Shown here: piece by piece, positions 6,053 through 31,315 of the stretch
Numbering within the stretch: the stretch's first letter is position 1
Layout of the letters: every line of letters begins with the position of its first letter
Assembly (NCBI GenBank): GCA_008015505.1
Contig: SSFR01000014.1
Coordinates: forward strand, 161,148-225,147
Source of the DNA: Pedobacter sp.
Lineage (GTDB): Bacteria; Bacteroidota; Bacteroidia; Sphingobacteriales; Sphingobacteriaceae
Direction of reading: 5' to 3'
Length of the DNA stretch: 64,000 nt
Program-made: the position numbers and the translations under genes
Notes under the pieces: model-generated
Databases searched by the model: none
What the model was told of the DNA's origin: nothing
What the model saw: the letters and a program-made list of their open reading frames with translations, nothing else

Positions 6053-6071
6053 TGAGCTTTAAACAAGCTCA
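6053..6071. terminator. Short hairpin between convergent genes
   Basis: TGAGCTT - TAAAC - AAGCTCA forms a 7-bp perfect stem just after the oxygenase stop. There is no T-run on either side, so it is a weak terminator candidate. Thirteen of 14 bases of CTTTAAACAAGCTC match the tip of the inverted-repeat element found at 24134-24294, so it may instead be a collapsed remnant of that element. Confidence 0.3.
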
Positions 6072-15357: not shown

Positions 15358-15552
15358 GAGTCGGTCTAAAATTTATTTTATAAAGCTATTGCCGGTTATT
15401 TTTGAGCGGAATGAGATAGATTTTTCAAAGATATTCAGCTGCTCGCTTCGCTCGGGTTTGGAGCAATAGTGAGAGGCCATTGCGAATAATCTAACAAAAT
15501 TATAGCCAAAAAGAAACAAAAGAATGAAATGAAATAAACTTTAGATTGGCTC
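15358..15552. repeat. Inverted-repeat (MITE-like) element, diverged copy
   Basis: About 195 bp with imperfect terminal inverted repeats: GAGTCGGTCTAAAATTTATT at the left and the complement of GAGCCAATCTAAAGTTTATT at the right. Internally it shares AAGCTATTGCCGGTTATTTT and neighbouring sequence with the element at 24134-24294, plus a related AGCCAAAAAGAA.CAAAAGA block near the right end. It contains no gene of its own. The rest of the 480-bp gap between pyc and the DUF4403-like gene (15194-15674) shows no other feature except a TAGTAGTT/AACTACTA hairpin at 15646-15666 without a clear T-run. Confidence 0.75.
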
Positions 15553-17348: not shown

Positions 17349-17371
17349 TAACCTAAACTTTAGACCAGCTC
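17349..17371. repeat. Solo end of the inverted-repeat element
   Basis: This stretch matches 20 of 23 bases of the right terminal inverted repeat of the 24134-24294 element (shared core CTAAACTTTAGACCAGCTC versus ATAAACTTTAGACAAGCTC). No interior or partner end is seen nearby, so it is probably a degraded remnant in the gap upstream of the DUF4403-like gene. Confidence 0.5.
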
Positions 17372-22973: not shown

Positions 22974-23921
22974 TCACCGAATGACGCGTTTCTTTCCTTG
23001 CCCCCTTATTTTCATCATTCGCTCAGGACAATCTGTATAAATTGCATCCGCACCTAGTTCCAAAGCCAACCGATAATCTTCTTCCGTATTAATACCAAAT
23101 AAAGCTACTTTACTTTTACTCTTAGCCTCCCCCTTTATACACTGCATTGACTTTTTATTCCAAAGACGATGAATATCTACTTCCGTACTCCCCTGCCCGA
23201 GCTGCAGTTTCTCTACCAAAGTCATAGTACGACGCAATTCAAAGCCCACCCAAGGATAGTATATCGATGATCGAACACAGTCGGCATTGAGCATAAGCTG
23301 TAATAAATGCGAGCGGGTCTGGTTTCTGGGTTCAAAAACAATTGCCCGGCTTTCTTTCGTCAGGATAGCTGTATGCTCATCACTTGTTGAGTAAAACAGT
23401 ACACGATCCCACTCATGATTAGCATCTACAACCTCAAACACAGCATCAACTAGTGGCTTTGCCGGTAATGATTTAAGATCGATAATAATAAATAAGTGCT
23501 TAGGAATACACTTAAAAGCCTCTTCTAACGTCGGAATATGTAAATCAATTTGTTGCATATTCCGATAAGGAAAGACCACTTGATCGAGTGTGAACCTATA
23601 GCCTGCATTAAACTGTCTAAGCGCTGAAACACTAAACGAACTAATAACACCTTCTCCATTTGTTCTGATATTCAAATCACTGGGATGATACAATACCGGC
23701 ACACTATCCTTCGATAGCTGTACATCTAACTCAATACCATCTACACCAAGCTCGATGGCCTTTTTGAACGCGTATAACGTGTTTTCTGGCATCTCCAATT
23801 GACCCCCACGATGAGCAATAATCATGGGAAAAACAGCTCCAGATACCCTATAAACGTGTTTTGTACAAGAGTTTATAGCAACAAATCCTACTATTAAACA
23901 AATTAAAAATTTCATCTTCAT
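22974..23921 (-). CDS. Glycerophosphodiester phosphodiesterase lipoprotein
   Basis: 315 residues. Lipoprotein signal with cysteine in VAINSCTKHV. GDPD-family active-site blocks are IIAHRGGQLEMPENTLYAF (His, Glu), DGIELDVQLSKDSVPVLYHP (Glu, Asp, second His) and, at the end, ELGADAIYTDCPERM. It hydrolyses glycerophosphodiesters to sn-glycerol-3-phosphate and alcohol in the periplasm or at the outer membrane. The codon before MKMKF is also ATG, so the start could be two residues later. It is convergent with the NadR-like gene (13 bp apart). Confidence 0.92.
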   Translation of the reverse strand: MKMKFLICLIVGFVAINSCTKHVYRVSGAVFPMIIAHRGGQLEMPENTLYAFKKAIELGVDGIELDVQLSKDSVPVLYHPSDLNIRTNGEGVISSFSVSALRQFNAGYRFTLDQVVFPYRNMQQIDLHIPTLEEAFKCIPKHLFIIIDLKSLPAKPLVDAVFEVVDANHEWDRVLFYSTSDEHTAILTKESRAIVFEPRNQTRSHLLQLMLNADCVRSSIYYPWVGFELRRTMTLVEKLQLGQGSTEVDIHRLWNKKSMQCIKGEAKSKSKVALFGINTEEDYRLALELGADAIYTDCPERMMKIRGQGKKRVIR

Positions 23922-24133
23922 GCGCCTGATTTATTCCTTTTAGAAAATAAATGAGATGGTTTATTCAAAGAGCTTGTCTACTTTTACCGGCTCATAATAC
24001 TCTAGTACAGCTAGCACTAATCTTCAAAGTGTAGACTGTATCTTGAATTCCAAATTGGCCCAGAGCAGTGGGAGTATATTAATTGAATTTTCACAAAACA
24101 AAATTAGGCCCTTATCGTCTTCTTTTTTCTAAA

Positions 24134-24294
24134 GAGCTTGTCTAAAGTTTATTTTATGAAGCTATTGCCGGTTATTTTTGAGCGAAATAAGACGGATTTT
24201 GGAGCCATAGCAGGGCACTATGGTGAAAAAATTCAACGAAATTGCAGCCAAAAAGAACCAAAAGAGCAAGATAAAATAAACTTTAGACAAGCTC
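24134..24294. repeat. MITE-like element with perfect 23-bp terminal inverted repeats
   Basis: 161 bp. The left end GAGCTTGTCTAAAGTTTATT(TTA) is the exact reverse complement of the right end over 23 bases. The interior is shared in part with the element at 15358-15552 (AAGCTATTGCCGGTTATTTT and the AGCCAAAAAGAACCAAAAGA block). No transposase is encoded; the ORF-track line at 24138-24362 only reads through it. The right end lies 11 bp from the sdhB stop, so the transcript could form a hairpin that acts on sdh mRNA 3' end formation or stability. No certain target-site duplication is visible. The rest of the gap 23922-24305 holds nothing else apart from an 11-base match to the element tip at 23970-23980. 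Confidence 0.85.
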
Positions 24295-24305
24295 AATTCA
24301 ATAAC

Positions 24306-25058
24306 TCATCTGAGCACACCACCTGTTTTATTAAACTCCCAATTCATGCGAGCAATATTTAATATGGAGATATTCTGTGGACACTTGACTTCACATGCTT
24401 CCGTATTACTGCAATGACCAAACCCCTCTATATCCATTTGTCTTACCATATTTAAAACTCTTTTTGTAGCTTCCTTTTTTCCCTGTGGAAGTTTTACCAA
24501 ATGAGCAATTTTGGCAGATGTGAATAAAGCAGCACTTGAATTTTTGCAGGTAGCCACACAAGCTCCGCAACCTATACAAGCTGCCGAATCAAAAGCTGAT
24601 TCTGCTGTCTCATGGGTGATGAGTAGCGTATTCGCTTCGACTGCTTGACCAGTGCTGACAGAAATAAATCCCCCTGATTGTACAATACGATCAAATGCTG
24701 ACCGATCTATTCTCAAATCTCGTTTTATAGGAAAAGCTTTAGCCCGAAAAGGTTCAATATAGATAGTGGCTTCATCTTTAAATTCTCGCATATGCAGTTG
24801 ACAAACCGTTAAGCCGGCTACCGGGCCATGGGCCTGTCCATTAATCATCATGCCACAGGAACCACAAATTCCTTCACGGCAGTCATGATCAAATTCAATT
24901 GGCGTTTCTCCCCTTAAGATTAAACTTTCATTAAGTGTATCCATCATCTCCAAAAACGACATATGAGGATCGATATTTTTTAGTTCATAATCCACTAACT
25001 TTCCCTTGCTCATGGCATTTTTCTGACGCCATACCTTAAGATTTATTTTCATCATCAA
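24306..25058 (-). CDS. sdhB: Succinate dehydrogenase/fumarate reductase iron-sulfur subunit
   Basis: 250 residues. Carries electrons from the flavin of SdhA to quinone at SdhC. Cluster ligands: [2Fe-2S] in CREGICGSCGMM plus C in LTVCQLH; the [4Fe-4S] motif CIGCGACVATCKN; and a last motif of the [3Fe-4S]/second cluster type in CSNTEACEVKCPQ. It is the last gene of sdhCAB, 9 bp after sdhA. The SdhB of this type pairs with a single-subunit membrane cytochrome (type B enzyme). Confidence 0.95.
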   Translation of the reverse strand: MMMKINLKVWRQKNAMSKGKLVDYELKNIDPHMSFLEMMDTLNESLILRGETPIEFDHDCREGICGSCGMMINGQAHGPVAGLTVCQLHMREFKDEATIYIEPFRAKAFPIKRDLRIDRSAFDRIVQSGGFISVSTGQAVEANTLLITHETAESAFDSAACIGCGACVATCKNSSAALFTSAKIAHLVKLPQGKKEATKRVLNMVRQMDIEGFGHCSNTEACEVKCPQNISILNIARMNWEFNKTGGVLR

Positions 25059-31072: not shown

Positions 31073-31147
31073 TGGAGGCTACTGGATTCGAACCAGTGAC
31101 CCTCTGCTTGTAAGGCAGATGCTCTGAACCAGCTGAGCTAAGCCTCC
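31073..31147 (-). tRNA. tRNA-Val (anticodon TAC), CCA encoded
   Basis: 75 nt plus an encoded CCA at 31070-31072. Acceptor GGAGGCT pairs with AGCCTCC. The anticodon arm CTGC-CTTACAA-GCAG gives UAC, reading GUA/GUG valine codons. D arm GCTCAGCTGGTTCAGAGC and T arm ACTGGTTCGAATCCAGT are regular. It is the second gene of the pair in the direction of transcription. Confidence 0.97.
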
Positions 31148-31240: not shown

Positions 31241-31315
31241 TGGAGGCTACTGGATTCGAACCAGTGACCCTCTGCTTGTAAGGCAGATGCTCTGAACCAG
31301 CTGAGCTAAGCCTCC
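31241..31315 (-). tRNA. tRNA-Val (anticodon TAC), CCA not encoded
   Basis: Identical over the whole 75-nt body to the copy at 31073-31147, with the same anticodon UAC. The three bases after the discriminator read CTA instead of CCA, so this copy needs CCA addition by nucleotidyltransferase. It is first in the pair and lies directly behind the promoter at 31336-31366. Confidence 0.97.

Follow-up and report, generated by a model that had tools for sequence, protein, structure and literature searches.

A high-copy MITE family in a Pedobacter genome, very likely mobilised in trans by an IS5-family transposase

The element and its relatives in the window

The window, that is the whole 64,000-nucleotide stretch of DNA analysed here, contains a 161-bp element with inverted ends and several shorter or more diverged family members. 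The features are listed below.

6054..6070, no strand assigned: 17-bp tip-to-tip remnant GAGCTTTAAACAAGCTC, with AAT on either side
15358..15552, + strand: long form (195 bp) of the MITE family, flanks ACT/GCT, one base off an exact duplication
17349..17371, − strand: solo family end, 20/23 match, partner not recognised
23970..23980, + strand: 11-base tip match GAGCTTGTCTA, remnant or chance
24131..24133, no strand assigned: left flank AAA, presumed target duplication (3-bp rule taken from other copies)
24134..24294, + strand: 161-bp MITE copy, belonging to the youngest subfamily and as much as 99% identical to copies elsewhere in the genome
24134..24157, + strand: left terminal inverted repeat GAGCTTGTCTAAAGTTTATTTTAT, its outer 17 bases equal to the ends of an IS5-family element on contig C1 of the same genome (G000)
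24271..24294, − strand: right terminal inverted repeat, reverse complement of the left repeat without a mismatch
24295..24297, no strand assigned: right flank AAT, presumed decayed target duplication (same rule)

The original prediction described perfect 23-bp terminal inverted repeats at 24134–24294. The element is real and its repeats are indeed exact, but they run over 24 bp. The statement that no transposase is encoded is correct for the 161-bp element itself, the interior of which is gene-free. Its flanks share two of three bases and are one base off an exact duplication.

Alignment with the 161-bp element bears out the predicted relationship of the 195-bp copy through common interior blocks. 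Common to both are 67 bp on the left and ~60 bp on the right, and an extra internal module of approximately TTTTCAAAGGTATTCAACTGTTCGCTTCGCTCGGGT, carrying TTCGCTTCGCTCG-like sequence, is located between them. Each end of the long form differs from that of the 161-bp element at 4 of 23 positions. The module also occurs in at least 7 other examined copies of 209–217 bp each. The solo end at 17349–17371 was found as predicted, and no partner was seen within 110 bp upstream of it. A tip match had been reported at 6057–6070; this is family sequence, but its extent had to be revised to the 17-bp remnant. The short match announced at 23970 is present over 11 bases.

Apart from the family, the window harbors two tRNA genes on the − strand (31073–31147 and 31241–31315) which have the same score and model span and start 168 bp apart; they are likely a tandem duplication. 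These two tRNAs were the only results of an Rfam search across the window.

Copy number, insertion sites and subfamilies

The window belongs to a draft genome of 2.34 Mb in 26 contigs. A profile built from 35 copies yielded 137 hits in it, including mirror-strand hits produced by the near-palindrome, and merging reduced these to 83 distinct family places. At least 130 bp are preserved in 68 of them, and the family totals 12.65 kb, or 0.54% of the genome. BLAST against the same genome (best 40 of 123 candidates scored) gave at least 76 matches with a best E-value of 9.5e-80, the matches listed comprising 40 places along with hits on the mirror strand. The tip pattern, allowing three mismatches at most, was found 267 times as compared with 49 times for the reversed control pattern. 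Given this E-value and this excess of tips, a chance origin of the family matches is excluded. The predicted genome-wide, high-copy family is thus present, and confinement of the sequence to the window, which the original prediction had named as evidence against mobility, is not what was found: copies occur throughout the genome.

Alignment of copies with their flanks, proposed as a search for target-site duplications, revealed exact duplications of 3 bp in 25 of 55 extracted elements. In 500 trials in which the right flanks were permuted among elements, 2.2 were expected and the maximum was 8. Since the 55 elements include a few false tip pairings, this count somewhat understates the true rate. 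No element of the 55 had a duplication exceeding 3 bp, and the duplicated triplets include GAT, GCT, ATT, AAG, TTA, ATA, TGT and CTT. A MITE is expected to be short (about 50–1000 bp) and without a transposase gene, to end in terminal inverted repeats, to be dispersed in many copies and to duplicate a target site of fixed length. Here, copies span 161–217 bp with no gene inside, the repeats of the window copy and the number of places are as given above, and the duplicated length is 3 bp.

Candidate empty sites, the lack of which in close relatives the original prediction had likewise named as evidence against mobility, were considered in congeners. One copy (L009) is located between a secreted-protein-like gene and a PorP-like gene which are 228 bp apart. 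A similar gene pair abuts without the element in the congener G014 and is 146 bp apart, with no element detected, in G005; in both cases orthology is uncertain as PorP genes are paralogous. Porin_O_P and PorP-like genes are part of the gene content of the present genome, and this content, together with the hosts in which related IS elements occur, places the organism in Bacteroidota. No paralogous empty sites were found within the genome's own loci. On contig C8 (168732–169107), a MITE end adjoins a broken IS5-type copy which itself contains a 161-bp MITE flanked by GAT/GAT. This nested arrangement was rejected as an empty site because the IS apparently has a large deletion there.

Among 19 other genomes of the genus, only G008 (two copies) and G012 (one copy) contain the family, as old and diverged copies; one of the G008 copies was detected only with a G008 copy as query. 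Hits of 24–33 bp in G037 and G039 fell within unrelated sequence and were discounted as chance matches. Neither the plasmid collection nor the viral contigs contained a match to the family, and the exact end pattern had none across named genomes; all three collections cover organisms other than the present genome and its nearest kin. On these searches, the MITE family seems confined to the present lineage. The few old copies in G008 and G012, set against the 83 places here, indicate that it is probably older than the species but was amplified in the present lineage.

Amplification probably came in several waves, for which we infer the order of the subfamilies GAGCCGGTCTAAA, GAGCTTGTTTAAA and, youngest, GAGCTTGTCTAAA, with short and long interiors. 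When long copies are aligned with short ones, the subfamily types of the ends are seen to combine in several ways with interiors that have or lack the extra module. This pattern suggests that copies have recombined or that the module was lost repeatedly. Minimal derivatives of 49 bp, in which tip meets tip, are present on C9 (flanks AAA/AAA) and C24 (TTT/TTT). A perfect 46-bp palindrome on C15 (141361–141406) consists of two facing family ends with zero interior.

The symmetry of the two arms deserves separate mention. Over 35 copies, arm pairing amounts to 94.3% versus 90.2% in shuffles, and 36 cells are changed on both arms versus 10.8 in shuffles. Most of this covariation reflects subfamilies. 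In two young copies, private changes are mirrored exactly in the other arm: two in L004 (alignment positions 7/158 and 14/151) and one in L013 (16/149), beside eight or so private changes which are unmirrored. We tentatively consider that the two arms of a single copy might change in step, as would be compatible with hairpin-templated (quasi-palindrome) correction, although this is rather doubtful and descent from an unseen master copy would also explain the mirrored changes. If true, such correction would keep the MITE ends symmetrical and hence mobile.

IS5-family elements with the same or related ends

Three near-full-length IS5-family copies were identified in the same genome, each with a 3-bp duplication.

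Contig C1, 948 bp: ends GAGCTTGTCTAAAGTTTT, duplication AGA/AGA, gene split by two frameshifts
Contig C15, 927 bp: ends GAGGTGATCTAAAGTTTT, duplication ATC/ATC, stops and one frameshift
Contig C13, 940 bp: ends (T/G)AGGTGAT(T/C)TAAA, duplication ATT/ATT, several frameshifts

Matching the MITE ends to transposase-bearing elements of the genome, another check that had been proposed, showed that the outer 17 of 17 bases (GAGCTTGTCTAAAGTTT) are common to the MITE and the C1 IS at both ends. The ends of the C15 and C13 copies are related to those of the MITE, not the same. In length and 3-bp duplication, these elements would fit the ISL2 or IS1031 subgroup of IS5.

The transposase genes of all three copies are broken. 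Pfam DDE_Tnp_1 was detected at one place of the genome, on C1, and DDE_Tnp_1_2 at another, on C15. Searches of the genome yielded no element with these ends that still has an intact transposase; tblastn gave further fragments only. The contig ends that were read (all except the far ends of six small contigs) showed no IS5-type end running off a contig and no hidden intact IS copy. Other repeats reach these contig ends. At the right end of C10 (677–1500 of locus L106), a tandem array of ~310-bp units, which matches the left end of C25, continues as far as the contig boundary. A repeat of 255–360 bp with 94–100% identity, in which no IS5-type end was seen, breaks several contigs (ends of C3, C11, C24, C11 and C26; L079, L087, L094, L107 and L116).

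Transposases of this IS5 group score above the cut-off for NCBIfam NF033580 (IS5 family transposase) and contain Pfam DUF4096 and DDE_Tnp_1. Relatives in G022 and G029 (51% and 44% identical) exceed the NF033580 cut-off, while a 201-aa fragment of a broken copy from the present genome reaches 72 bits, below the cut-off of 110. Transposase relatives from the same taxonomic family and class that are intact or nearly so match NF033580 and both Pfam domains. Some IS5 elements use programmed frameshifting (PMC3196728) and, by analogy, one frameshift in the C1 gene might be of this kind. Because two frameshifts are present in one gene, decay is the likelier reading.

A scan of named genomes for the transposase retained the best 80 of 150 relatives, of which 40 were examined for ends. 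Recognisable ends were present in 37 of these 40, mostly from named Bacteroidota. They are mostly of the form GA(A/G)N(C/T)TGT(C/T)TAAA(G/C)TT and delimit elements of 875–949 bp. An exact 3-bp duplication accompanies 24 of the 37, a count slightly favoured by the ranking used. The MITE ends conform to the GA(A/G)-N-(C/T)TGT(C/T)TAAA motif of these related IS5 elements, and the end motif is a property of a widespread IS group. IS5-family elements of Dyadobacter, Spirosoma, Emticicia, Saprospira grandis and Chryseobacterium have the same outer-end type and 3-bp duplications. In contrast to the MITE, which has no gene and an unrelated interior, they carry a DDE transposase gene within their 875–949 bp.

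Origin and significance of the family

We consider it very likely that the 161-bp element is a type II MITE (naming as in PMC10969869) mobilised in trans by an IS5-family transposase. The copy number, the 3-bp duplications and the IS5-family ends of the same genome all support this reading, which was one of the two offered originally. The assignment to type II is based on the finding that only the ends are common to MITE and IS: a BLAST comparison of the interior with the IS, using 7-base words, gave no convincing match. For mobilisation, a DDE transposase of the IS5 family, supplied from elsewhere in the cell, would bind the GAGCTTGTCTAAAGTTT ends, excise or copy the 161-bp passenger and insert it at a new site, where 3 bp would be duplicated. 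We infer the action of such a transposase on the MITE ends, and the chemistry of transposition likewise. As the transposase copies detected in the genome are all broken, the family is now probably immobile or nearly so.

Could the copies instead be recent, simple internal-deletion derivatives of an IS5 element, i.e. type I MITEs? The matching ends would be expected, and the genome does hold an IS deletion derivative, a ~236-bp internal-deletion form of an IS5-type element on C18 (74050–74450) with ends GGGTCGGTCTAAAGTT and AAAATTTTAGATCACCTC, itself possibly a proto-MITE of type I. However, the MITE interior has no IS similarity beyond the outer 17 bases, and interiors are instead common to the MITE subfamilies and an old G008 copy, which makes a type I origin very unlikely.

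The second reading offered originally, that the element was maintained and spread as a transcription terminator or structured RNA, appears extremely improbable. The + strand folds into a long hairpin (−61 kcal/mol), for the interior alone, folding is somewhat stronger than in shuffled sequences (z −2.6 and −1.7), the arms covary and nearly all copies are intergenic. Yet a hairpin is expected from inverted repeats, the better-than-shuffle score is mainly due to the inverted ends, and selection against gene disruption accounts for the intergenic bias. A rho-independent terminator comprises a hairpin followed by a T tract, whereas neither a T tract nor a terminator-like site is present in 23900–24400, and the element has no Rfam match. 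Copies are located between tandem genes in 26 of 46 cases, divergent genes in 12 and convergent genes in only 4, the remaining four having been called ‘inside’ at 21–73 bp from an ORF end. This order, with divergent pairs exceeding convergent ones, is the reverse of terminator expectation; the counts reflect intergenic insertion tolerated by selection. Moreover, neither a terminator nor an RNA explains the exact 3-bp duplications and the IS-matching ends. A regulatory role acquired after insertion is a different matter and is compatible with a MITE origin. For other bacterial MITEs, regulatory roles have been reported or suggested (PMC10969869), and many copies of the present family are only tens of bases away from the start or end of a gene, so that some could act on neighbouring genes by providing a promoter, a hairpin affecting mRNA stability or a source of sRNA. 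Such exaptation is unlikely here, as no positional or orientation rule was seen and the family, nearly absent from congeners, shows no hint of a conserved function.

A type II MITE moved by an IS5-family transposase has close parallels. The IS5-family MITEs of Porphyromonas gingivalis (BrickBuilt, MITE293 and MITE700) are likewise non-autonomous, intergenic elements of a member of the Bacteroidota, with ends matching IS5-family elements of the same genome and no transposase remnant inside. They differ in their parents (ISPg1/3/4/9, with full-length parents present), in their lower copy number (19 for BrickBuilt) and in their internal 23-nt tandem repeats (PMC4596501). According to PMC4596501, ATR of Neisseria meningitidis is a type II MITE whose terminal repeats led to the proposal that it derives from ISNme1, an IS5-family element, and the ISNme1 ends equal those of BrickBuilt. 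On that account, ATR resembles the present family in being linked to an IS5-family parent through its ends alone and differs in host and parent. Many apparently inactive IS5 elements are known from Amoebophilus, a symbiont of the Bacteroidota (PMC3196728). A description of the present MITE family was not found in the open-licence literature.

The family is a well-documented fresh example of an ordinary kind of genome parasite. It adds a well-resolved IS5-linked MITE family for Bacteroidota, the parent type of which is identified but broken. Its copies could be used as strain-typing markers, and annotators are cautioned that such hairpins might be mistaken for regulatory RNAs or terminators. 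With the end motif and the 3-bp rule, similar passengers can be located in other Bacteroidota. The family captures a non-autonomous burst at a stage where it has seemingly outlasted its transposase.
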